40,118 bases of DNA. It comes from a virus. The stretch is from the IMG/VR virus record IMGVR_UViG_3300030106_003896, positions 1 to 40,118 of that record. The stretch is one strand, 5' to 3'. The stretch's first letter is position 1; each line of letters opens with the position of its first letter. The position numbers and the translations under genes were made by a program. The notes below the pieces were generated by a model. It was not told the origin of the DNA. It did not search any database and worked only from the letters and a program-made list of their open reading frames with translations. This document shows, one piece after another, positions 2,269 to 38,732 of the stretch.

Positions 2269-2426
2269 TGTCTAAGCCTCGTAATAGAAGAGTAAACAAA
2301 AAGATATCCAAGTTAGTTGACGAAGGATATCCCATGTATCAAGCAGTTGCTATTGCTTTAAGTATGGAAGAAAAGAAAAGATTAGGACCCAAGGGTGGGT
2401 ATAGAAGAGCTAAAGCAAAAAAATAG
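2268..2426 (+). CDS. small basic protein, 52 aa
   Basis: This 52-residue basic protein starts at the TAATG junction and ends inside the large terminase gene (32-base overlap). It contains a short helix-turn pattern, KKISKLVDEGYPMYQAVAIA followed by LSMEEKKRLGPKGG, which resembles the small helical proteins often found before large terminases. I cannot assign a function. Because its stop lies just after the terminase GTG, its translation probably helps ribosomes reach the terminase start. Confidence 0.65.
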   Translation: MSKPRNRRVNKKISKLVDEGYPMYQAVAIALSMEEKKRLGPKGGYRRAKAKK

Positions 2427-4011
2427 TTTTAACATTAACCCTTCGCCAGAAGAAATGGCAAGAAAAGACGAGGTATTGCACAAAGCATATAATGACCTTG
2501 TTTACTTTGGTAGAGCTTTTCTACCTAATGACTTCTTAAACAAAAGCACATCTCCCTCCTATCACTACGATGTATCTAAAAAATTAATATCAACCAAGCC
2601 CGGTGAGCGTATCTGTATCATACTTCCACGGGGCTTTGGTAAATCTATCCTTTCTAAATCTGCTATTATGCACAAGCTTTGTTTTTCAGGTGAGGATACA
2701 CAAAATTTTATAGCATGGGTATCAGAAGAACAAGGACAATCAATAGACCACCTAAAATATATCAGACACCATCTAGAGACAAACAAGACAATCAAATATT
2801 ACTTTGGTAATATGGATGGAGGCTCAGTGGGAAAAAGATGGACTGAAAAGGATTTAGTTACCCCCAAAGGTGACAGGATTATAGCCAAAGGCACCAGCCA
2901 AAGGCTTCGTGGTAGAGCTGAGGTAGATGTTCGATACACTGGCATCATTCTTGATGACTTTGAATCAGAACTAAACACAAGGACACCAGAAAGACGTGCA
3001 GACATCAAGAGGTGGGTGGTATCAACGATTTATCCGGCTTTGGAAGAATCCCCGGGTAAGGAAGGCTGGATATGGCTTTCTGGCACGATTGTGCACTTTG
3101 ATAGCTTCCTGCAAATGACATACGATGGATATAACAAAGCAAAGGAAGATAATCGCAGTTATCCTTGGCAGGTATTTTTCAAGCGTGCAATAGAGGATGG
3201 TCAGCCTATTTGGAAGGAACAGTTCCCACTTTCTAAGTTAAATGCAAAGAAAAGAGAGTTTATAGAAGCGGGACTTGTAAACAAGTTTGCTCAGGAGTAC
3301 ATGAATGATGCTAGAGATATATCCAATGCGTCATTTAAGATAGATAGGATACAATACTTTTCTGGTGAGAGAAAGTATATCAATGGATTTAATTACATAG
3401 CAGAGCACGATGAGATGATACCTATTAATCTTTACATAGGGGTAGACCTTGCAGCGACAGCTAGTGAGACCTCTGACTATCAGGTAATACTGGTCATGGG
3501 TATAGATTCACGCTCTAATCGTTATGTCTTAGAATATTTTAGAGAACGTATCCCTACCTTTGATGTGCCGCAAAAGATTATAGACTTAGCAAAGAAATAC
3601 AATCCAGTTAAAAGGGTTACAATAGAAACAGTGGCAGCACAAGAGATGGTTAGAGACATGGTAACTCGTATGAGTGCGCAGGAAAAGCGATTGATGCCCG
3701 GTATCTTCAAAGGTGTTAAGCCACCCGGTAGAATTAAGAAGGCAGATAGGCTAGAAACAACACTAGGACCTATTGTCAACTCAAAGAAGTTATATATACG
3801 TAGAGAGATGACAGAGATAGTAGATGAGTTCTTTGAACACCCAAAACCTAGGAACGATGATATTATGGATGCTCTTTATTATGCGGATTACTTTGCAAGA
3901 GCGCCTAAGTCAGCTGCTACACCAAAAGAAGGATTTAAAGGTGGAAAGAGAAAAGAAAGTCTATTCCCAAAGTTAAAAAAGTATAATTGGATGACAGGGG
4001 CAAGAACATAA
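2395..4011 (+). CDS. terL: terminase large subunit (packaging ATPase-nuclease)
   Basis: This is the DNA-packaging motor and headful or cos nuclease, 538 residues and full length for the family. The ATPase domain shows a Walker A-like PRGFGKS at residues 78-84, Walker B IILDD at 184-188 followed by Glu190, and a coupling motif SGT at 229-231. The RNase H-like nuclease domain shows the three acidic positions: GVD at residue 351, IE at 411, and NDDIMDA around 488-492. The listed start is GTG inside the upstream gene without a clear ribosome site; an ATG at 2455 (residue 21) is a possible alternative and leaves all motifs intact. Packaging partners are the small-terminase-like gene and the portal. 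Confidence 0.95.
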   Translation: MGIEELKQKNSFNINPSPEEMARKDEVLHKAYNDLVYFGRAFLPNDFLNKSTSPSYHYDVSKKLISTKPGERICIILPRGFGKSILSKSAIMHKLCFSGEDTQNFIAWVSEEQGQSIDHLKYIRHHLETNKTIKYYFGNMDGGSVGKRWTEKDLVTPKGDRIIAKGTSQRLRGRAEVDVRYTGIILDDFESELNTRTPERRADIKRWVVSTIYPALEESPGKEGWIWLSGTIVHFDSFLQMTYDGYNKAKEDNRSYPWQVFFKRAIEDGQPIWKEQFPLSKLNAKKREFIEAGLVNKFAQEYMNDARDISNASFKIDRIQYFSGERKYINGFNYIAEHDEMIPINLYIGVDLAATASETSDYQVILVMGIDSRSNRYVLEYFRERIPTFDVPQKIIDLAKKYNPVKRVTIETVAAQEMVRDMVTRMSAQEKRLMPGIFKGVKPPGRIKKADRLETTLGPIVNSKKLYIRREMTEIVDEFFEHPKPRNDDIMDALYYADYFARAPKSAATPKEGFKGGKRKESLFPKLKKYNWMTGART

Positions 4012-4020
4012 AATAAACTA

Positions 4021-4049
4021 TTGTTAGTTACAATATTTATTTTTATATT
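4021..4049 (+). promoter_or_regulatory. candidate sigma-70-type promoter before the virion genes
   Basis: In the 91-base gap after the large terminase, TTGTTA at 4021-4026 is followed after exactly 17 bases by TATATT at 4044-4049. A second -10-like TACAAT lies at 4071-4076 without a good -35. This is the widest gap between the terminase and the virion genes, so a promoter for the 802-residue protein and portal is plausible. AT-rich sequence makes chance matches common. Confidence 0.35.
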
Positions 4050-4102
4050 CTCCCGATAGAAGATTTCTGTTACAATAATTAAGCTATAGGACCACATACC
4101 AA

Positions 4103-6511
4103 ATGGCAAATAGAAGCAGAATGATGTTTCCAGACTCAGGCTTAGTAGTCGGACCATCCCATAGTGACGGAGGAGTTTATGCTTCTGTTGCTAACGGTCC
4201 CGATGTAGAACTAGAAGGCGGAGAGTTCATTATCAATAAAGAGGCTACTGAGGACTTCTTGCCTCTCATCAAGCAAATCAACGATATCGGAAGGATGGAA
4301 CAGATGAACAACGCTGATAACGCTCAAAACGCTCATAGTGCCATAGATGCACTTATTGCCAGTGCCAGCACCAAGATGATGCCCGGAGGAGGCATGGTCG
4401 AACCCAAGACCCCAATGTACCAAGAAGGTGGAGTCTTGAATATAACAGGATACGACCCAAGACAAGAAGAAACCTTTACTAGATTACAACTACCATCAAG
4501 CTCTGGTAGAAGAGGTTTGTTGGGAGTTATAAATAATGCAATACTTAAAAATAGATTAGAAAAGCAAGCAGAGCTTTTAGGTTCTTCTTTAAACCCAGAA
4601 GAAAGTAGCGTTCTTCCAAGGGTAAGCTTGCAAACTCCAGATGGTAATAAGGGCAATTTTGGAGTTACTGTTTCAAAGCCTGTATTAAAATCTCAATTTA
4701 AGGGCTCAGACGCAGAGCAAATGGAAAAACTTTCAGAGCTAGACAATCTACAAAATAGACCTGAAATGCAAAACATAATGCAAGCCTTAGAAAAAAGAGC
4801 ACAACAACCTAATAATATATTTGACTTGTTAAGAAGTCTAGCTCCAGAAAAGCAACAAGGCGGTATGATACAATACCAAAAAGGCGGAAATGTAGAAGGA
4901 ATTGATGTAAAGGAAAAAAATGGTAAATTTTCTGCACAGGCAATTATATCAGTGCCTGCAAGTATGGTTGGCGATGAAGGTGGTAGAAGATACTACTTAT
5001 CTTCACCTCAAACTTCTTCAGGACGGCAGAATGCAATGACAAAAGCCGAAATGAATGCTCGCAGAAAAATGGCTTACACACCAGAGGACTCTATACCTGC
5101 CGCTCTAGCCGAAGAATACTTTGATAGACAAAACAAAAAATCACCACTAGGATTTTTGCAGGGATTGTTAAATAGGGAACAGGGTGGTATGATACAATAT
5201 GAAGAAGGTGGTCCTCTTCATAGCCGTAGAATGTTTAACCAAGGTACTGGTTTTGATAAGAAAAAGTCTGACTTAAATAAAGATGGTAAGATATCTGAGT
5301 ATGAAAAGAAAAGAGGAATGGCTATTGCTAAGTCAATGAAGAATCAAATGCAGATGGGTGGTATGATTGGTATGCAACAACCCATGATGCAAAGACCTAT
5401 GAATCCAGCTATGAACCTTAGCCCTATGCAAAGAATGGGTAACAATATGCCACCAATGATGTATCAAGAGGGTGGTAAAGTGTCTCAAGAAGATGTTTTA
5501 AAAATGGTTGATTCTTTATACAGCGATGTAGAAAATCCTTTTACTAGAGAGTTATTATTTCAAACTGACCCTGATATGAAAGATATGCCGGGTAGAGTAA
5601 ATCCAATGAGAGCACTATTAGAAGCTTTGACTACGCAAAGAGCTACAAGAGATGGTGGTAGATTTAAAAGCATGATGGGTAGATACAAGCTAGATGATAG
5701 CCCAAAACCTAGAGGTATTGACGAACTGTTAAGTAATATTAACTTACAAAGCATGATGCAAGAAGCTAGACCCAGTAGGGAAGGAAGAGACCAGTCTCAA
5801 GTAGTGCAAGATAATCTTGCTAGACGAATAGGCTCTAGCTCTGATATACAAACACCAAATGATTTAGTTAGATACCTTACGACTGCTAGACCAGCTTTTC
5901 AGGTTAGTAGTCCTGAAGATAACGACAATGTAGAAAACTTTTTTAAGATGATAGAGAATATAGATGCTGTTCCTAAGTCTAGAAAATCAATGCAAATGGG
6001 TGGACAGGTACAGCTTAGAAAGCAAGCTGAGATGAGAAAAGAGCCAAAAGAAAAAATGAATGTAATATTTCCATTTATAAATGAAATGCCTTTTCTTTAC
6101 CCAAATTTTCAAGGTCCACTCAGCCCCTCTCAAAGCGAGAGCTTAAATAAGTTCTTAAAACAATTAGAAGAAGAAAAGGAAAAGCAACCAAAAAAGCTTA
6201 TGGCTCAAGAAGGTGGTATGATTTCTGATAACAATTTGATGGGAGCTATGGCTAACGATAGGAGAGTAGCAGCATTGCAACCAGATGTTTATTCTTCTAA
6301 GATGGAAAATGGAATGACAGTTAAGCAAAAGATGATGGTGCCAAAATTAGCAGAAGCAATTCTTCCTGTATATGGGGTTGAGACTCCTTTGTCTAAAAGA
6401 CAAAGCTCTATGTTAAAGAAAAATGCAGTTAGTCCAAGTGCTTTAAATCCAAACGTAAAAGGGCTTGTCAATAGATTATTAGTACAAAGGCTAGCAAACG
6501 AGACCACTTAA
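4103..6511 (+). CDS. putative virion protein with QxGG repeats and an EF-hand-like loop
   Basis: This 802-residue protein lies between the large terminase and the portal. It opens with a GPSHSDGGV...ELEGGEFIINKEAT segment (residues 17-49), a pattern I recall from phage virion proteins. A short motif of the form Q-x-GG-hydrophobic recurs about nine times along the chain (for example QEGG near residues 107-110, QQGGMIQYQKGG near 251, EQGGMIQYEEGG near 358, YQEGGKV near 452, AQEGGMI near 700). Residues 390-401 read DLNKDGKISEYE, a good 12-residue EF-hand calcium loop. Long, Met- and Gln-rich, low-complexity stretches lie between. Function is unknown; an internal or head-assembly protein is likely from position. 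The ATG follows CTATAGGACC at a reasonable distance. Confidence 0.75.
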   Translation: MANRSRMMFPDSGLVVGPSHSDGGVYASVANGPDVELEGGEFIINKEATEDFLPLIKQINDIGRMEQMNNADNAQNAHSAIDALIASASTKMMPGGGMVEPKTPMYQEGGVLNITGYDPRQEETFTRLQLPSSSGRRGLLGVINNAILKNRLEKQAELLGSSLNPEESSVLPRVSLQTPDGNKGNFGVTVSKPVLKSQFKGSDAEQMEKLSELDNLQNRPEMQNIMQALEKRAQQPNNIFDLLRSLAPEKQQGGMIQYQKGGNVEGIDVKEKNGKFSAQAIISVPASMVGDEGGRRYYLSSPQTSSGRQNAMTKAEMNARRKMAYTPEDSIPAALAEEYFDRQNKKSPLGFLQGLLNREQGGMIQYEEGGPLHSRRMFNQGTGFDKKKSDLNKDGKISEYEKKRGMAIAKSMKNQMQMGGMIGMQQPMMQRPMNPAMNLSPMQRMGNNMPPMMYQEGGKVSQEDVLKMVDSLYSDVENPFTRELLFQTDPDMKDMPGRVNPMRALLEALTTQRATRDGGRFKSMMGRYKLDDSPKPRGIDELLSNINLQSMMQEARPSREGRDQSQVVQDNLARRIGSSSDIQTPNDLVRYLTTARPAFQVSSPEDNDNVENFFKMIENIDAVPKSRKSMQMGGQVQLRKQAEMRKEPKEKMNVIFPFINEMPFLYPNFQGPLSPSQSESLNKFLKQLEEEKEKQPKKLMAQEGGMISDNNLMGAMANDRRVAALQPDVYSSKMENGMTVKQKMMVPKLAEAILPVYGVETPLSKRQSSMLKKNAVSPSALNPNVKGLVNRLLVQRLANETT

Positions 6512-8529
6512 TGGTATTAGAAAAAGATAAAAGAGCAGATTATAACCAAGAACTATATCGTAGATATAGAGATGCTAGAAAAAGCTGGGATACCGAAGCT
6601 CGTTTTGATATAGATTTTTTTCATGGTAACCACTACACTACAGAAGAAGTAGATGAGTTACAATCAAGAAACCAAGCTGATGTGCCAATGGATAGGATTG
6701 GACCAGCTATTGAAAAATTTAAAGCTGTTTTAACTTCACGTTCTCCAGCATTTACCATGACACCTAGAGAAGATTCTGATGTAAAGATTGCTTCTCTATG
6801 GAGAGTTATCATGGGATATATCTGGGGTAACTCAAATGGTGATTATCAGTTAAAGCACGCAATACATGACTACGCTACAACAGGGTTAGGTTACTTGTAT
6901 GCGTATGTAGATGCAGAGTCAGATTTTGGTAGAGGTGATGTCAAGTTCACTTATGTAAATCCCTTTCGAGTATATGCCTCTCCTAACACCCGAAATCGTT
7001 GGTTTGATGATGCTGAAAGTATTATTCTTTCCACGATACTAACCGGTGAACAGGTCGTCAACCTCTACCCTGAATTAGGAGAACAAGAAGACCCAGAGAC
7101 AGGGGAGATGCAAGTTGGCATTATACAGGATTTAGAAACTTATCTTGAAGAAGACTATCCTGATGCAATGAATGCTAACAATAAAAAGATATTTACTCCG
7201 TCCGAGGTTAAAGATTTAGACTATTACGAAAGACAGAAGTATCAGATATTAGAAAGATTTTACAAAGTCAAAGTTAGTTTTTACCGTATCATAGATATGC
7301 AGAACGGTGAAGAAGTAATTTTGAGTGAACCTGAGTATGCAGAGTTTATTGAGAACAATAGAGAACAGATAGAAGCAGGTCAATACGAAGTCATACCAGT
7401 AAGACAAACTAGAGTAAAGGTTTGCGCTAGTATCGGTCAAGTAGTTCTTTATGAGACTATCTTGAACACCGACCACTATCCTATCATACCTTTTCCAAAT
7501 GTATTCACAGAAAGCCCTTACCCAAAGTCAGATGTATCAAGGGCAAGACCTATGCAAAGGCTTTTAAATAAATTATGGTCATTAGCACTATCACACGCAC
7601 AAGCATCCGGAGGATTAAAGCTATTAGTTCCATTAGGGAGTGTAGAAGACCTTGGTCAACTAGAAAGAGACTGGGCAAATCCAAACGCAGTCATAGAAGT
7701 AGACAGCACACAAGGTGAGCCACATTTTCCAGCACCTCAGCCGTTATCTTCTGAGTTTTACAGACTAATACAGCAGTGTGAGTTCTATATTGACTTTACA
7801 TTTGGATTGCCTGAGATGATGCACGGCTTTGCTGAGAAAGCACCAGAAACAGTAAGAGCCACAGAAAGAATGATATCTTTAGGTTCAGAAAGACCAAAGT
7901 CAAAACTACGAGATATAGAGTTTAGCATTAATAGACTAGGACAGGTATTGTATAACCTATCCAAGGGTCACTATACATATAAAAAGATTTTTAGGCTCAA
8001 CGAAGCCAACAATGATATTACAGAAGCAACTATCAATATGTACGATAAAAAGGTAGGAGCAATACTAGATATCAAAAAAGAAAAACATAATTTACAACAG
8101 CATGACGTCAGGATTGAGCCCGGGTCTACGCTACCAACCAACAAGTATGCAGAGCTTGGTGTATACATGGAGGCGTTTAGAATGGGTATCGTAGATAGAA
8201 CAGAGGTTCTTAAAAAGAATCCTGAGATATTTGACAAGGAAGGTGTAATGAGAAGAACAGAAGAAAGACAGTTATTACAGAGACAGATTGCTGCAATGAC
8301 CGAGCAAATTAAGAATTTGGAGGGTGACCTCCAGACTGCCCAAAGGGAGTCCATAAGTGATAGAAAGAAAGTCGAAGTCGAGAAATTCAAGACTAGATTG
8401 AAAGATATCTCTGCGGACGCCAAAGCTGATAGACGAGTTCAACTAAACAACCTACAATCTAAGGTGAAGCTCGAAGCGGAGAAATTAGCGAATGTTAGAA
8501 AAGACGCTAGTTCTGCTCCTGAAGCTTAG
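6511..8529 (+). CDS. portal protein
   Basis: This 672-residue protein is the dodecameric ring at the packaging vertex. Its length fits P22-like portals of podoviruses. Near the N-terminus it has the usual ARKSWDTEARFDIDFFHGNHY and a later VPMDRIGPAIEKFKAVLTSR segment, matching the portal pattern in which conserved N-terminal helices lead to an R-P/x-D-x-V core. The middle (WFDDAESIILSTIL, VKVSFYRIIDM, FGLPEMMHG) fits the wing and stem regions. The C-terminal 90 residues form a Glu/Lys/Gln-rich coiled coil, as expected for a barrel or a scaffold contact. It is joined to the previous gene by TAATG and followed directly by the scaffold gene. Confidence 0.9.
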   Translation: MVLEKDKRADYNQELYRRYRDARKSWDTEARFDIDFFHGNHYTTEEVDELQSRNQADVPMDRIGPAIEKFKAVLTSRSPAFTMTPREDSDVKIASLWRVIMGYIWGNSNGDYQLKHAIHDYATTGLGYLYAYVDAESDFGRGDVKFTYVNPFRVYASPNTRNRWFDDAESIILSTILTGEQVVNLYPELGEQEDPETGEMQVGIIQDLETYLEEDYPDAMNANNKKIFTPSEVKDLDYYERQKYQILERFYKVKVSFYRIIDMQNGEEVILSEPEYAEFIENNREQIEAGQYEVIPVRQTRVKVCASIGQVVLYETILNTDHYPIIPFPNVFTESPYPKSDVSRARPMQRLLNKLWSLALSHAQASGGLKLLVPLGSVEDLGQLERDWANPNAVIEVDSTQGEPHFPAPQPLSSEFYRLIQQCEFYIDFTFGLPEMMHGFAEKAPETVRATERMISLGSERPKSKLRDIEFSINRLGQVLYNLSKGHYTYKKIFRLNEANNDITEATINMYDKKVGAILDIKKEKHNLQQHDVRIEPGSTLPTNKYAELGVYMEAFRMGIVDRTEVLKKNPEIFDKEGVMRRTEERQLLQRQIAAMTEQIKNLEGDLQTAQRESISDRKKVEVEKFKTRLKDISADAKADRRVQLNNLQSKVKLEAEKLANVRKDASSAPEA

Positions 8530-8549
8530 AGACATCTGAAAGGAATATA

Positions 8550-9383
8550 ATGGATAATCAACAAGTAGAGGCTACATCAACTGCTGACGGTTTGGTAGAT
8601 GGTGGCGCTGATATAGTACAAGAAGTACGAGAACAAACAGACGCTCAGTATGAGCAACAAGCTGACCAACCTGTAGAAGAGGCTGTAGATTACAGCGCTC
8701 CAGAGGTTAGCGTAGAAAGCGAAACAACTCCAGTAAACGAATGGGAGGTAGAAGCACGCAAGTTTCAATCTATGTATGATAAATCAACTGCAGAGAATGA
8801 AAAACTACGTAAGTTTGAACCTCTTGGACAATTACTAGAGCAAAGACCTGATTTGGTAAATATGCTTCAAGAAAATATCAACGCTCCACAGCAGCCACAA
8901 CAGCAACAACAACAAAGTCAACCGGGTCTGAAACCGGAAGACTTCAACCCTTGGGATGCGTATTACAGTCCAGAATCACCATCTTTTAAGTTCAGGCTAA
9001 ATCAAGAGATGCAGCTTGCCAAAGATGTCGTAGATAATGCGATGGCGCAACAAAAGAGACAGATGCAAGAAGAAATAACCTATAACAATACAGTCAATGA
9101 GCTTAGAAACACTTATAAGTTTTCGGATGGAGACGTTCAAGAGTTTATGGGGTTTGTTACTCAGCCCAAAGAATCTGTAGGGTTATCTAATCTTGTCAAG
9201 CTATTCAGAGATGTAAAAAACAAAGGTAACGCTCCAGAGACAGCCCAAGCAGTACAAAATGCCCAACAACAACCCAGAACAGCTGGGGTACTCCAAGGTG
9301 GTGCACAAAGTTCACCAAAGAGTGCAGAGAATCAAGTATGGGATAATATTGTAAATGCCGGGAGTCGTACTAGCGTCCTTTAA
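8550..9383 (+). CDS. putative capsid scaffolding protein
   Basis: This 277-residue protein sits exactly between portal and major capsid, the usual place of a scaffold. It is acidic and Gln-rich, with a poly-Gln tract near residues 113-123, a Glu-rich N-terminal third and predicted helices (FKFRLNQEMQLAKDVVDNAM, then QEEITYNNTVNELRNTYKF). There is no catalytic protease motif. The ATG follows GAAAGGAATATA, a good ribosome site. Scaffolds diverge fast, so the call rests on composition and gene order. Confidence 0.8.
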   Translation: MDNQQVEATSTADGLVDGGADIVQEVREQTDAQYEQQADQPVEEAVDYSAPEVSVESETTPVNEWEVEARKFQSMYDKSTAENEKLRKFEPLGQLLEQRPDLVNMLQENINAPQQPQQQQQQSQPGLKPEDFNPWDAYYSPESPSFKFRLNQEMQLAKDVVDNAMAQQKRQMQEEITYNNTVNELRNTYKFSDGDVQEFMGFVTQPKESVGLSNLVKLFRDVKNKGNAPETAQAVQNAQQQPRTAGVLQGGAQSSPKSAENQVWDNIVNAGSRTSVL

Positions 9384-9410
9384 TTAATCACATAATGGAA
9401 GGAATGACAA

Positions 9411-10769
9411 ATGGCAACATTTAATAATCCTCATCCCCTTAAGGTTGGAGACCCCGGTGCAGTTATAGACAGCACGATTCCTTCGAGACGACTGTTTAAC
9501 TTTAGTGATAGAGTAGCAGACCTCGCTCCAGAAGAATCGCCGTTTTTTGTATACTTATCCAAGGTAGCCAAAGTCCCTACGGATGACCCACAGTTTAGAT
9601 GGTTGAAAGACAGAAACAAGATTGATATGACAGATAGAAGTTTCCGTTTAGCAGCCGCTCATACTGTACCAGCTGCAGGCAGTACATTAACTTATACTGT
9701 TGAAACTGCAGGAACTTCACAAGGCTCAGTAGACTTTCTAATTAAAGGAATGGTCTTTGCTGTTGGCGAAACTAACGCCTCAACAAACGAGCCAGAAACC
9801 GCAATCGTTAGAATCGAAAGCGCTCCAATAGATGCCGGAGACACAAGCACATTTACTGGTCGTACAATATCTGCAGCAACTGGTTCAACCACTTCTGCTG
9901 CTGACCAGACTTTATGTACTATTATCGGTAGTGCATTTGAAGAAGGAACTGGTTCTCCAGACTCTTTCTCAAAGCATTTAGATAATGGTGTCGGATACTG
10001 TCAAATCTTTAAAACCTCTTGTGAGTTAACTAACACAGCAAGAGCTACTGTATATCGTGGATATGCTAGTGAGTTTGATAGAATCTGGAACTTAAAGTTA
10101 CGTGAGCACAAAGTTGACATTGAAAGAGCTATGCTCTTTGGTCAAGGTGGTGTTGTAAATGGTATCTCTTACTCTGACGGTATTGTAGGAAGTATTATTA
10201 AGAACTCACAGTCACAGATTAAAGATAATGCTCAGTTAGATTACACAGAAGATAAAGCATTCTTCTCAACTCGTACAGACGCACAGTTTACTTACGATGC
10301 GTTACTTGCTGATTTAGAAGTTGTTTTTGACCCTGCACGTGGTGGAGCTGGCGCAAAACTTGCGTTGTGTTCATTACCTGTAATCACATTCTTTAACAAG
10401 ATGGCAAGCTCTAATACTTTCTTATCTTCAGTACACTCTGCTGCTAATCCTTTAATGTCACAAGAGAAAGGTTCTTTTGGACATAAAGTGGTCAAGGTAG
10501 AAACTATTCACGGTGACCTAACCCTAGTAAAAGAGCCCCTATTTAGAGGTTTTGCTGCTGGGTTCATGGCTATGGTTGACTTGGACCAAGTTGCTTACAG
10601 ACCTTTGATTGGTAACGGTGTAAACAGAGACACACACATTATGACTAATGTGCAGTCTGCTGATGAAGACCTACGTAAAGATATGGTATTGACTGAAGCT
10701 GGTTTAGAAGTTTCTTTACCAGAAGCACACGCATTGTTCAACTTTGAATCTGCTTACACAGCACCATAA
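9411..10769 (+). CDS. major capsid protein
   Basis: This 452-residue protein should form the icosahedral shell. It resembles the HK97-fold capsid proteins of the phage SU10/DUF5309 type as I remember them: an N-terminal RRLFNFSDRVADLAPEESPF segment, a beta-rich insertion (residues about 80-170), then YCQIFKTSCELTNTARATVY and the long spine-helix segment FDRIWNLKLREHKVDIERAM, ending with HIMTNVQ and a short C-terminal strand. Position after the scaffold and a strong ribosome site (GGAAGGAATGACAA before the ATG) support it. No search was possible, so the subfamily is less certain than the role. Confidence 0.9.
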   Translation: MATFNNPHPLKVGDPGAVIDSTIPSRRLFNFSDRVADLAPEESPFFVYLSKVAKVPTDDPQFRWLKDRNKIDMTDRSFRLAAAHTVPAAGSTLTYTVETAGTSQGSVDFLIKGMVFAVGETNASTNEPETAIVRIESAPIDAGDTSTFTGRTISAATGSTTSAADQTLCTIIGSAFEEGTGSPDSFSKHLDNGVGYCQIFKTSCELTNTARATVYRGYASEFDRIWNLKLREHKVDIERAMLFGQGGVVNGISYSDGIVGSIIKNSQSQIKDNAQLDYTEDKAFFSTRTDAQFTYDALLADLEVVFDPARGGAGAKLALCSLPVITFFNKMASSNTFLSSVHSAANPLMSQEKGSFGHKVVKVETIHGDLTLVKEPLFRGFAAGFMAMVDLDQVAYRPLIGNGVNRDTHIMTNVQSADEDLRKDMVLTEAGLEVSLPEAHALFNFESAYTAP

Positions 10770-35034: not shown

Positions 35035-35193
35035 TCATCTTGCAAAGTTAAGCCATTCGAGCTTAGTGCCTATAAAGAATCTTCTTTTCTTTCTATGCTT
35101 ACCTAAGTCCCATATCCTTAAATCGTAACCGTAAGGGTTTTGCTTTAATGCTTTCTTTGCCTCACGTAACGTCTGGTAATACTTTTTCATCAT
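35035..35193 (-). CDS. small basic conserved protein, 52 aa
   Basis: This 52-residue protein overlaps the upstream stop (ATGATGA) with a good AAGGTGGG site before its ATG at 35193. It has a helix YQTLREAKKALKQNPYGYDL, a basic turn with five Lys/Arg, and ends with RRFFIGTKLEWLNF. The alternation NP...IWDL...RRFFIGT-x-x-EWL is a pattern I recall from small phage proteins that lack a known role. It is basic and may bind nucleic acid. Confidence 0.6.
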   Translation of the reverse strand: MMKKYYQTLREAKKALKQNPYGYDLRIWDLGKHRKKRRFFIGTKLEWLNFAR

Positions 35194-35375
35194 CCCACCT
35201 TACTTTTATATTTATCATACTCAGCATTTCTTTCTTTCTCTGTGCTAAACCACTCAACACCTACAATATCTTCATCTAAATAATAATATATACCAAAAGG
35301 TTTATTATGGTCTATCATTCTTCTAACTTTAAGAGTAGCCTCGTTTTCCCAAAAAACTTTTTCGCATCTCTCCAT
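35190..35375 (-). CDS. hypothetical small protein, 61 aa
   Basis: This 61-residue protein has a helix with VFWENEATLKVRRMIDHNKP, a Tyr-rich strand (FGIYYYLDED) and IVGVEWFSTEKERNAEYDKY, which resembles the closing helix of small phage regulators. It follows the ADP-ribosyltransferase-like gene by one base, with GAGGAG before its ATG. The family is not recognised. Confidence 0.6.
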   Translation of the reverse strand: MERCEKVFWENEATLKVRRMIDHNKPFGIYYYLDEDIVGVEWFSTEKERNAEYDKYKSKVG

Positions 35376-35376
35376 T

Positions 35377-35784
35377 TTATAACTCCTCGTAGTCCATCCA
35401 TATCATAGAATCTGGATTGATTATAGCCTCTGACTCTTGTCTGGCATTTGTGAAGTACAATATGTTTTCCTTATCTATCTCGCCTTTCATAATGTATGGC
35501 GTACCTCCTAATCTACTGAATCGTAGGGCGAACATCTTTGCCACCTCCTCATTGGTTGTCCATGACGCCCCGAGTTGTGTGTCAAACTTCTCCTTCGCTA
35601 GTATGCCTCTGTAAAGCATGACCTCATCGGGTAGCTTGTCGTACATCTCTTGCGATTCTTCGTCTGTCTTTTGCTCTACCTCGCTGAAGAAGCCCATCAC
35701 CGCATCCCAACTCTTGAATATGTTTAGGGGAAACTCTGCGTCAACGTAGGCATCTATCCCCTTCTGTGCTAGTTCTCTGTTCAT
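35377..35784 (-). CDS. ADP-ribosyltransferase-like protein (R-S-E class)
   Basis: This 135-residue protein carries the three blocks of an Arg-specific ADP-ribosyltransferase: Arg59-Gly60 in VMLYRG, Ser74-Trp75-Thr76-Thr77 in the GASWTTNEEVAKMFA block, and Glu117-x-Glu119 in NARQESEAII. The order and spacing suit NAD-dependent transfer to an arginine of a host protein. Phages such as T4 use enzymes of this class on RNA polymerase and other host proteins, which is why this one may remodel the host early. I chose ATG 35784 from the AAAGGAC site; promoter-like site F ends 20 bases before it. Substrate is unknown. Confidence 0.7.
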   Translation of the reverse strand: MNRELAQKGIDAYVDAEFPLNIFKSWDAVMGFFSEVEQKTDEESQEMYDKLPDEVMLYRGILAKEKFDTQLGASWTTNEEVAKMFALRFSRLGGTPYIMKGEIDKENILYFTNARQESEAIINPDSMIWMDYEEL

Positions 35785-35804
35785 CTGTTGTCCTTTCTTT
35801 TCTT

Positions 35805-35835
35805 CTTTAACTCGGGAATACCTCAAAGGTTCCCC
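35805..35835 (-). promoter_or_regulatory. early promoter-like site F
   Basis: GGGGAA at 35835-35830 and TTAAAG at 35810-35805 on the - strand, 19 bases apart, in the gap before the ADP-ribosyltransferase-like gene. The -10 is weaker than in the other copies. Confidence 0.5.
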
Positions 35836-35842
35836 AGTTTTT

Positions 35843-36226
35843 TTACAACTCCGAATTAACATTGCAATATTTCTCGCCACTCTCCTTGAAGTACCGTTGA
35901 ACTTCCTTACCAAAGCAGTAGTCTGCGTAGTACTCAACGTCTTGACTTACCCACTCTGATTTGTAGTCCTCAATATGCTTAGACATATATTTGTGTAATT
36001 TCTCATTGTTATAGTAAGGCTCTTCTTCGAAAAACTTTTCTAGAATCGGTAGCCTATCTCCTAAGTCATTCTTTATAGACTCCATTCGGTTCTTGAATGT
36101 ATCATCATCACAGATTGTGTAATCTATACGTGTCTCATAACCTCCGAACTTTTCTGGAGTATCTGAGGATTGTACGCCGAACCACCATTTACCCTCTACG
36201 TCTCCATTGTAGAATCTGCCCATCAT
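35843..36226 (-). CDS. conserved phage hypothetical protein, GRFYNGDVEGKWWFG type
   Basis: Start codons ATG 36226 and 36223 both overlap the upstream stop; GAGGTGG before them fits. The product of about 127 residues begins MMGRFYNGDVEGKWWFGVQS, followed by SSDTPEKFGGYE and a long acidic helical part. I recall the GRFY-x-G-D-x-x-GKFWF/G-x-QSSD opening from phage and virus proteins without assigned function. The aromatic-rich start suggests a conserved binding face. It lies just upstream of the ADP-ribosyltransferase-like gene. Confidence 0.7.
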   Translation of the reverse strand: MMGRFYNGDVEGKWWFGVQSSDTPEKFGGYETRIDYTICDDDTFKNRMESIKNDLGDRLPILEKFFEEEPYYNNEKLHKYMSKHIEDYKSEWVSQDVEYYADYCFGKEVQRYFKESGEKYCNVNSEL

Positions 36227-36450
36227 TCCACCTCGCTTTCTGAACAAGCATCGCAGTAGTGAATCTCATCGTCTTGCTCGTCCTCTGTCCAACCCCAATC
36301 GTTGATTAAGGTCTTGGTTGTTTCTTTCCAACAATAGAAGCCATCTTCATCGCCGTAACTTCTATATCTTATCTCCATGTCAATCTTAATTGACTCGTTG
36401 CATCCCGTGCCGTCGCATCCGTACTCTTGTTGTGGTGTGTACATCGCCAT
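36223..36450 (-). CDS. Cys-rich small protein, 75 aa
   Basis: This 75-residue acidic protein has Cys12-x4-Cys17, Cys40 and the C-terminal Cys66-x2-Cys69, which could bind one zinc. The middle contains EIRYRSYGDEDGFYCWKET, giving a Trp/Tyr-rich face. The family is unknown. Promoter-like site B, with a perfect TATAAT, lies 21 bases before its ATG, and GAGAGGAAAC is a strong ribosome site. Confidence 0.65.
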   Translation of the reverse strand: MAMYTPQQEYGCDGTGCNESIKIDMEIRYRSYGDEDGFYCWKETTKTLINDWGWTEDEQDDEIHYCDACSESEVE

Positions 36451-36471
36451 GTTTGTTTCCTCTCTTTATTT

Positions 36472-36502
36472 ATTATACGCTTAAGTTTAATTAAAGTTCC
36501 AA
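36472..36502 (-). promoter_or_regulatory. early promoter-like site B (best copy)
   Basis: TTGGAA at 36502-36497 and a perfect TATAAT at 36477-36472 on the - strand, 19 bases apart, with GCG before the -10. It lies 21 bases upstream of the ATG at 36450. Confidence 0.65.
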
Positions 36503-36508
36503 ACTTTT

Positions 36509-36751
36509 TTATTTTATGGTGTTCAATTCTTTTTCCCAGAAAGAATCTTGTTCTATTTTTTCGATAGGCTTTCCGTAAAAATGTGAATTGAAATAGTTCC
36601 CTAGTTCATACATATTCCAATCTTTTTTATTACGCATCCAGCTTTGCAATAATGTTTCGATAAATTTTTGTCGCTCTTCATCGTCCATTTCATAAGCTAC
36701 AAATCTAGATAGCACATACATAAACCAATCTTTACTTATTTTTGTGTTCAT
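36509..36751 (-). CDS. hypothetical protein, 80 aa
   Basis: This 80-residue protein is helical with ISKDWFMYVLSRFVAYEMDD, FIETLLQSWMRNKKDWNMYE and a final SFWEKELNTIK. It is rich in Trp, Phe and Tyr for its size. The ribosome site (AAAGGGAAAAAG) is strong. I recognise no family. A 242-base leader, read from promoter-like site C, precedes it. Confidence 0.65.
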   Translation of the reverse strand: MNTKISKDWFMYVLSRFVAYEMDDEERQKFIETLLQSWMRNKKDWNMYELGNYFNSHFYGKPIEKIEQDSFWEKELNTIK

Positions 36752-36993
36752 CTTTTTCCCTTTGTTTTTGTTTTACAAATCTTCTAGGACGGGCAAAGAT
36801 TGAATCGATTAAACCATTTCCTGTTCATCTTTCCCTTGCGGGCAATCATCTTTCACGGGCTTAAGTTTAATGAGTGTCCCCCTTCTTAGGTTCTGCCCAC
36901 AGATAGTAAACTCTATCTACACTCGTGTTGTACCGAATCGACCCAGTAGGTTGTCAGTATCACACCCGTCCCAATTTTTAAATATCTTTTTCT
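36752..36993 (-). other. long untranslated leader, 242 bases
   Basis: No protein frame of normal length lies between promoter-like site C and the gene at 36751. It holds a small hairpin (AGATAG/CTATCT near 36900-36917), a degenerate copy of the promoter (GGGGAC with ATTAAACTTAAGC, shared with site B), and possible micro-ORFs of 21 codons or fewer. A long leader with a decayed promoter suggests regulation or a small RNA, not proven. Confidence 0.4.
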
Positions 36994-37024
36994 TTTATAC
37001 GCATCAATTATCTATTTGTTCCAA
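36994..37024 (-). promoter_or_regulatory. early promoter-like site C
   Basis: TTGGAA at 37024-37019 and TATAAA at 36999-36994 on the - strand, 19 bases apart. It overlaps the 3' end of the upstream gene, and the next start codon is 242 bases away. Confidence 0.55.
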
Positions 37025-37321
37025 ACTTTTTTTACTCTCTATAAACTCATAGTCGCCAACTACCAACCAACTCAAAGCATCGTTAATCATCTCCTTGTCA
37101 ATGCTTTTCTTATGTGGTTTGTTCCAATCTTTATGATGGACTTTCCCCTCTGCTAGTTGTTCCCAATCTATTTCACAATCTGTACAGATTCTGTCTTGGT
37201 AGTAACTTGTCACAAAGTGTTCTTCATTGTGGTGTATAGTTGCCACCCCTCCATCGTCTGTTCGTATTGTGATATCATCCTTATCTTCTGTAATAATCTC
37301 GTAAAAGATTTTTTCTTTCAT
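37004..37321 (-). CDS. hypothetical protein, 105 aa
   Basis: This 105-residue protein opens with strands (FYEIITEDKDDITIRTDDGG, VATIHHNEE) and has ICTDCEIDWEQL in the middle, with Cys46 and Cys49 as a possible half metal site. The C-terminal helix is NDALSWLVVGDYEFIESKKS. The family is unknown. The 3' end overlaps promoter-like site C. The ribosome site (AGAGAGATGAACT) is fair. Confidence 0.65.
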   Translation of the reverse strand: MKEKIFYEIITEDKDDITIRTDDGGVATIHHNEEHFVTSYYQDRICTDCEIDWEQLAEGKVHHKDWNKPHKKSIDKEMINDALSWLVVGDYEFIESKKSLEQIDN

Positions 37322-37366
37322 AGTTCATCTCTCTTTCTGTAGTTTATTTTTATTTCACAATCTGTA

Positions 37367-37774
37367 TTATATTGTGCATTCTTCTAATACTTTTTCTTCA
37401 AAGATTGATTCTTTCTCTCCGTAGAATAGCATATCATCTAACCACTGCACCCAATCCTCGGTGGTGTCTAGCTCTCGAACTGCACCATCAAACCAATCTT
37501 TATATCTGTATTCTATCCGTCCGTCACGATAGAAATTTATTTCATCACTTGGACCACCCCACGAAAGCTGATACCTAAAGTACCCTTCGTCTTGATTGTC
37601 AAATGTATCCTTCTCTACATAATCAAAGCATAATCCGTAGCTCTCCCACAATCCTAAATCTTCTACTGCATCTTCCCAGATATCGTCAACCTCCATATAC
37701 TTTCTAATATCGTTGGCTACTTTTTTTAGCTCGCCATCTATTAATTGTTCGCAAGTTTTTTGTTGTTCATCCAT
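37367..37774 (-). CDS. conserved phage hypothetical protein, LSWGGPSDE type
   Basis: This 135-residue protein holds YGLCFDYVEKDTFDNQDEGY and FRYQLSWGGPSDEINFYRDG, a sequence type I have seen as a widespread phage and bacterial hypothetical family, often with the core FDN-Q-x-E-GYFRYQLSWGGPSDEF. It then has IEYRYKDWFDGAVRELDTTE and an acidic end. The role is unknown. Promoter-like site E lies 22 bases before its ATG; the ribosome site is GAGAGGAAAC. Confidence 0.7.
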   Translation of the reverse strand: MDEQQKTCEQLIDGELKKVANDIRKYMEVDDIWEDAVEDLGLWESYGLCFDYVEKDTFDNQDEGYFRYQLSWGGPSDEINFYRDGRIEYRYKDWFDGAVRELDTTEDWVQWLDDMLFYGEKESIFEEKVLEECTI

Positions 37775-37796
37775 TTTTGTTTCCTCTCGTTTTTAC

Positions 37797-37827
37797 TTTA
37801 TACGTTTTATTATTTTAAAAGTTCCCA
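37797..37827 (-). promoter_or_regulatory. early promoter-like site E
   Basis: TGGGAA at 37827-37822 and TATAAA at 37802-37797 on the - strand, 19 bases apart, 22 bases before the ATG of the LSWGGPSDE-type gene. Confidence 0.55.
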
Positions 37828-37828
37828 A

Positions 37829-38008
37829 TTATTTTATTATTTTATATTCTGATTTATTTAATAGAATATCTCCACAAAATACCAAGCCCTTCTTTTTGTA
37901 ATCTGGTTGATTGTGAGCAATCACTGCATTGTATACTTTGTTTTTATCTAGTTTAATAACGGGGTAAGTTCCTAGTAATCTGTAATTTTCTTTTGGTTGT
38001 ATTTTCAT
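37829..38008 (-). CDS. small protein, 59 aa
   Basis: This 59-residue protein has AAAGG seven bases before its ATG at 38008. It reads KENYRLLGTYPVIKLDKNKV, YNAVIAHNQPDYKKKGLVFC and ends with Lys/Ile. It looks like a small beta protein with one Cys. The family is unknown. Its stop lies next to promoter-like site E. Confidence 0.6.
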   Translation of the reverse strand: MKIQPKENYRLLGTYPVIKLDKNKVYNAVIAHNQPDYKKKGLVFCGDILLNKSEYKIIK

Positions 38009-38089
38009 TGTATAACCTTTCTTATATTATGTAATCTAAATTTATAGGGGGCTAAGGAAAGGAAACCCTAACCCCCCTTTTACCCTTAA
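38009..38089 (-). other. imperfect G-rich hairpin between early genes
   Basis: In the 81-base gap, GGGGG at 38047-38051 and its continuation can pair with CCCTAACCCCC at 38065-38077, with two mismatches across an A/G-rich loop. On the - strand, TATAAATTTA follows, not a U-run. It may slow transcription or mark a message end. Nothing else is visible. Confidence 0.35.
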
Positions 38090-38371
38090 CTAATCTTTTT
38101 TATTGTACTTTTCATTTAGTCTCTGTCTTCTAGCTTGCAAGGTTCTAATTTGCAAATCAAGCTCTCTATCTTCTTTTTCAAAATCCACTCTCTTTCTTAT
38201 GTTCTTTTTCAAATACATTTGGTAAAAATCCCAAGTGTAGGATGAGCCTCGATAGTCTGCAAGGTCCTCACTTTCTACACTTTCTGCAGTCTGTATAATA
38301 TCTTCTATAAGGGCTTGAACGTTTGCTTCGCTTACTTCTACTTCTCTTTCTTCTGATATATTAAAAATCAT
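38090..38371 (-). CDS. hypothetical coiled-coil protein, 93 aa
   Basis: I chose ATG 38371 from the AAAGGAATTTTTAAA leader; the frame runs longer without a ribosome site and would include the promoter. The 93-residue product is acidic at the N-terminus (FNISEEREVEVSEANVQALI), then has YTWDFYQMYLKKNIRKRVDF, and ends in a basic coiled coil (LDLQIRTLQARRQRLNEKYN). The family is unknown. It is the first gene after the repeat region. Confidence 0.65.
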   Translation of the reverse strand: MIFNISEEREVEVSEANVQALIEDIIQTAESVESEDLADYRGSSYTWDFYQMYLKKNIRKRVDFEKEDRELDLQIRTLQARRQRLNEKYNKKD

Positions 38372-38585: not shown

Positions 38586-38716
38586 TAGTTACGTGAATTA
38601 TATTAATAAAATAGTAGCTACGTGAATATTCTATAATAAAAATAGATTTCACAATGCGTCTAGTATTTACGTGAATGTTATATTATAAAATATCTACGTG
38701 AATTACCTACGTGAAT
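38586..38716 (+). repeat. five direct 13-bp iteron-like repeats
   Basis: TANYTACGTGAAT occurs at 38586-38598, 38615-38627, 38664-38676, 38691-38703 and 38704-38716, all in the same orientation, the last two in perfect tandem. The nine bases TACGTGAAT are identical in all. Between the copies the DNA is AT-rich and not conserved. This is the pattern of protein-binding iterons, as in plasmid and phage origins or operator arrays. Confidence 0.8.
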
Positions 38717-38732
38717 GGATTATATAAAAAAA

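Follow-up and report, generated by a model that had tools for sequence, protein, structure and literature searches.

The genome analysed here carries, on balance probably, an accessory cassette consisting of a promoter and a single gene, the product of which would be a minimal R-S-E ADP-ribosyltransferase (ART) that, after infection, modifies a protein of the host. The stretch of DNA analysed, hereafter the window, is the IMG/VR virus record IMGVR_UViG_3300030106_003896 (40,118 bases). Since related contigs span the ends of the record, with about 400 bases in between, we take the genome to be nearly complete, and circularly permuted or circular. The plus strand carries genes for the terminase, a P22-like portal, and an SU10-like capsid (positions 2395-10769), and the minus strand carries many small genes; the phage is podovirus-like. 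At least 599 relatives of the terminase are present in IMG/VR, and we take the phage clade to be abundant and probably marine. A megablast search with window bases 1-25000 against phage records returned no match. The ART-like gene, P0001, and its predicted active-site codons are located as follows:

35377..35784, minus strand: ART-like gene P0001, 135 amino acids, with ATG at 35784-35782 and stop codon at 35379-35377
35792..35797, minus strand: AAAGGA, similar to a ribosome-binding site, 7 nt 5' of the ATG and invariant in six relatives
35608..35610, minus strand: codon of Arg59, part of Y-R-G, the predicted NAD-binding arginine of R-S-E, invariant in the alignments
35557..35565, minus strand: codons of Ser74-Trp75-Thr76, the predicted S of R-S-E on the second core strand, conserved in the family
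35428..35436, minus strand: codons of Glu117-Ser118-Glu119, the ExE motif, both glutamates invariant in every alignment

Translation of the minus strand placed R59, S74-W75-T76, and E117-S-E119 in the 135-residue open reading frame exactly where a first-pass annotation of this DNA had seen an R-S-E triad, with Glu119 as the predicted catalytic glutamate; the plus strand of 35377-35784 contains no open frame. Relatives of the gene were found at 96-99% identity in five contigs and at 55-56% in two more, and dN/dS values of 0.04-0.13, obtained with the five close relatives, revealed purifying selection. Diverged relatives, 11 to 13 in number and with 22-34% identity, are scattered over phages and plasmids, and nearly all of them are annotated as "hypothetical". 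The diverged phage relatives, identified by tblastn, belong to cluster-L mycobacteriophages, the Ruegeria phage RpAliso, and a Pseudomonas filamentous phage (the last at an E value of 0.08), and the plasmid relatives are from Mycolicibacterium, Selenomonas, Bacillus, Agrobacterium, Photobacterium, Paenibacillus, and Subdoligranulum. When 11 and 13 members were aligned, hardly any columns other than Y-R, S-W, A, F, and E-x-E were invariant; S74 and W75 are invariant in the family, and T76 is kept in all but one member. Judged from these alignments, the invariant columns are the active-site pattern of R-S-E ADP-ribosyltransferases. Because these columns are nearly the only ones to be invariant, and because the gene is under purifying selection, the presence of the active-site residues goes beyond chance.

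A profile of unknown function, PHROG 4776, matched residues 31-127 of P0001 with an E value of 9.4e-16, and was matched by all family members tested (11/11). Scans of P0001 against Pfam, NCBIfam, and PADLOC revealed nothing significant, and other members of the family gave chance-level matches only; a DRAT match of one member (E 0.16) was set aside. Searches of PDB sequences, with P0001 and with the family profile, returned chance matches only. Scans of genome contigs for close relatives revealed one Streptomyces locus; 246 genomes of the phylum to which this locus belongs contained two matches, and the family is therefore rare in that phylum. We conclude that the family is a scattered, unnamed, minimal branch of R-S-E ARTs, an assignment for which its occurrence, seen in sequence comparisons, in phages and on plasmids whose hosts are unrelated also argues. 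Since the plasmid relatives show that the family is not limited to phages, its function may exceed action on the host of the phage. An Agrobacterium plasmid contains two copies of an ART-domain gene (L017 and NZ_CP143887.1 119167-119460), with identical scores. On Selenomonas ruminantium pSRC1 (L023, 2764-6276), the ART relative adjoins, on the opposite strand, genes for NAD synthesis, namely nadE, pncB, an isochorismatase-family gene, and NUDIX.

An AlphaFold2 model of P0001, built with eight family sequences, had a mean pLDDT of 79.9 and a pTM of 0.74. In this model, R59 is located on strand 54-62, the first core strand, S74-W-T on strand 74-76, and E119 on strand 119-122, so that the layout expected of R-S-E enzymes (Arg on strand 1, S-x-[ST] on strand 2, and [EQ]-x-E on a late strand) is found on or beside the model strands. 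A Foldseek search of the model against the PDB placed PARP and cholera-toxin ARTs among the top matches, none of which was below an E value of 0.001. VIA-align was run on the Foldseek candidates, and 49 of the 50 best matches were recognised ART-fold proteins. The best match was Tpt1/KptA, with a Z of 7.2 (top values, rmsd 2.6 and 83 residues), and the list included diphtheria toxin (Z 6.4), TreX (5.7), TreTu (5.0), pertussis S1 (4.9), and PARPs (4.6-4.9); the sole non-ART protein among the 50 was 2aua, of unknown function (Z 5.0). Taken by itself, a Z under 8 could reflect a common arrangement; we read the model as an ART fold because the list is nearly pure and agrees with the conserved residues. 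The second model, that of a mycobacteriophage relative, had lower overall confidence; its C-terminal half gave largely the same list of ARTs, and a split beta-sheet ART core was predicted for both members.

When hhalign was used to compare the family profile with one built from T4 ModA/ModB relatives, the P value was 7e-5 and the probability 54-62%, over only 33-34 columns, while an unrelated control gave a P value of 0.36. The alignment places R59 on ModB R73 and S74 on ModB S99, and the ExE strand is outside the aligned columns. ModB modifies host arginines and increases burst size, and R73 is required for its activity (PMC10468400). The first-pass annotation had called P0001 ADP-ribosyltransferase-like and proposed a structure prediction and a search against ART families as a check. 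The predicted fold is ART-like in two members of the family and, together with the family-wide invariance of R-S-ExE and the Mod profile alignment, it supports this assignment well. Judged from the ExE motif, an arginine-type enzyme is plausible. Some enzymes with mainly NAD-cleaving activity also have ExE.

Upstream of the ART gene is a promoter-like site. This site and its surroundings include the following features:

35804..35835, minus strand: promoter-like site of the ART gene, GGGGAAC-N16-AGTTAAAGA, with conserved ends and a variable spacer
37825, 37022, and 36500 (strict) and 38428, 33859, and 35833 (weaker), minus strand: sites of the promoter-like family GGAAC-N16-CGTATAA
35377..35841, minus strand: putative cassette, promoter-like site and ART gene, with the phrog_33624 gene on one side and small downstream genes on the other
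35843..36226, minus strand: neighbour gene, phrog_33624, coding for a 127-amino acid MGRFYNGD protein of unknown function, which also occurs without ART

The site is composed of GGAAC (35833-35829), 16 nt, and AGTTAAAGA (35812-35804). In six relatives, both ends of GGGGAAC-N16-nGTTAAAG are fixed and the 16-nt spacer is largely variable; at the equivalent position in the diverged phages L069 and L111, a strict GGAAC-N16-CATATAAAG is present. The site in the window itself has a weak -10 half, GTTAAA instead of TATAA. These comparisons strengthen the earlier suggestion that the gene has a promoter-like site of its own. Three matches to the pattern GGAAC-N16-N[AG]TATAA, all on the early strand, were counted in the window, where 0.02 would be expected; a relaxed form has six matches, with 0.35 expected. 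Close relatives also have strict sites, as do more distant contigs, and most of these sites lie directly 5' of small open reading frames. The layout of the family is presumably ECF-sigma-like. The family is common to the phage clade, including phages that lack the ART (G006, G026, G022, L145, and L146, the last two within the stretch compared). In a very AT-rich, non-coding region at 38600-38730, TTCACGTA is present in five copies within about 120 bases, and several copies are soon followed by a TATAAT-like sequence; the repeats may form an origin or an array bound by a regulator.

One empty site was found. In the relative L137, window positions 35841-35192 are missing, and the flanks are 92% and 97% identical (L137 2280-2679 matches window 36241-35842, and L137 2680-3667 matches 35191-34204); the stop codon of the phrog_33624 gene is followed directly by the next downstream gene. 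A small open reading frame 3' of the ART gene (35190-35375) is missing in five ART-bearing relatives. Thus, L137 lacks both the ART gene and its promoter, the ART-bearing relatives lack the small open reading frame instead, and the gene and promoter behave as a unit. A profile search revealed no ART in the larger relatives G006 (44 kb) and G026 (42 kb). We conclude from these genome comparisons that the ART gene is an accessory cassette, dispensable, and not needed to recognise GGAAC-N16-CGTATAA promoters. Early timing of the gene is suggested by its strand and gene order only. In the region 36223-38371, small early genes are swapped between near-identical phages; each of the five ART-bearing contigs has both the ART and the MGRFYNGD gene.

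The first-pass annotation had combined the enzyme and the promoter family into a host-takeover step, possibly a change in promoter choice. If so, a T4 ModA/Alt-like enzyme would modify host RNA polymerase and shift it to the unusual promoters of the phage, a reading that agrees with the R-S-ExE signature shared with T4 Mod enzymes, with the profile alignment, and with the location of the promoter family on the strand of the ART gene. However, the ART-less phages listed above carry the same promoters, and L137 dispenses with the enzyme. The ART gene itself is located behind a member of the family, and the promoters must therefore be readable before the enzyme is made, unless it is packaged. A survey (PMC9503650) places 44% of phage ARTs in contexts that suggest head packaging. 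Here, the gene stands alone, on the opposite strand, and is not among the head genes; packaging into the virion, as with T4 Alt, is unlikely because the gene is far from them. We therefore consider polymerase modification of this kind very improbable, and the proposed change in promoter choice is not supported, given the ART-less relatives. A contribution to host takeover is possible, but not as a core step, since the gene is accessory (empty in L137 and absent from the larger relatives); an accessory gene is more readily explained by targets among defence proteins or conditional host factors than by a core takeover step.

A sharper form of our explanation, which we hold only tentatively, is that the enzyme ADP-ribosylates a host immune protein and is kept only where the defence is met. 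The clean presence or absence between near-identical phages, the separate promoter, the variable region of the early strand, and the patchy spread on phages and plasmids would all be expected, but PADLOC revealed no relation, and any accessory benefit fits the same pattern. More doubtful is an extension to the whole group, in which PHROG 4776 and its relatives would be undescribed compact arginine-type ARTs, exchanged by mobile elements (marine podovirus-like phages, mycobacteriophages, Bacillus and Selenomonas plasmids, and actinobacterial elements) as anti-defence against a common bacterial target. Toxins are common among ARTs, phage ART toxin-antitoxin pairs are reported in PMC9503650, and P0001 could be a toxin or NADase acting in superinfection exclusion or paired with the MGRFYNGD protein, whose gene adjoins the ART gene in close relatives and is near it in L069 and L111. 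Yet the MGRFYNGD gene occurs with no ART nearby in L137 and L144-L147, L069 and L111 have the two genes in the opposite order, with an extra gene between them in L111, and inspection of the neighbours of plasmid relatives revealed no common partner. No constant adjacent antitoxin gene was thus found; the MGRFYNGD protein was rejected as an antitoxin or obligate partner, because its gene occurs without the ART and in other orders, and we regard a toxin or NADase as unlikely. Little weight can be given to an ART-like fold without ADP-ribosylation catalysis: the protein is very short (135 amino acids), and the case for the fold comes from a predicted model with middling Z, but the catalytic triad is precisely what the family keeps invariant, and dN/dS is low.

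With an accessory cassette for a host-modifying ART as the preferred explanation, the ART gene would be read leftward after infection, together with other minus-strand genes. Arg59 and Ser74 would bind host NAD+, Glu119 would activate it, and Glu117 would orient the acceptor. The ADP-ribose would be transferred to an arginine of a host protein, another acceptor being less likely. The modified host factor, either a protein of host defence or a component of the machinery for gene expression, would be switched off; it would be relevant only in some hosts or conditions, and some close relatives could for this reason do without the ART. In this scheme, catalysis, the roles of single residues, arginine specificity, early timing, and action on a host factor are what we infer.

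According to PMC9503650, phage ARTs are rare in podoviruses (3%). T4 ModA and ModB are similar to P0001 in the succession [YW]RG, S-x-[TS], A..F, and ExE, and in being stand-alone phage proteins away from the head genes. They are longer (about 200 versus 135 amino acids), and are encoded by a modA-modB pair in a myovirus, whereas a single gene is found here, in a podovirus-like phage. The TreX and TreTu Rhs C-terminal ART toxins resemble the P0001 model as small single-domain ART folds (Z 5.7 and 5.0, 73-78 residues), but they are delivered toxins with dedicated immunity proteins, while P0001 has no delivery domain or obligate partner. AcrIF11 is an anti-CRISPR that is an ADP-ribosyltransferase; likened to P0001 by description only, it would serve as a model of defence being disabled by an ART that a phage carries as an accessory. 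The proteins of PHROG 4776 from cluster-L mycobacteriophages, such as LeBron and JoeDirt, have the same YRG, SWT, and ExE pattern as P0001; they are about 240 amino acids long, with an extra N-terminal helical half, while the 135-residue P0001 is nearly the catalytic domain alone. A likely biochemical activity is thereby assigned to an unnamed family that occurs both in well-studied cluster-L mycobacteriophages and in a phage clade that is abundant and probably marine. The natural pair of phages with and without the gene (the window type and L137), together with the mycobacteriophage relatives, makes its function directly testable.
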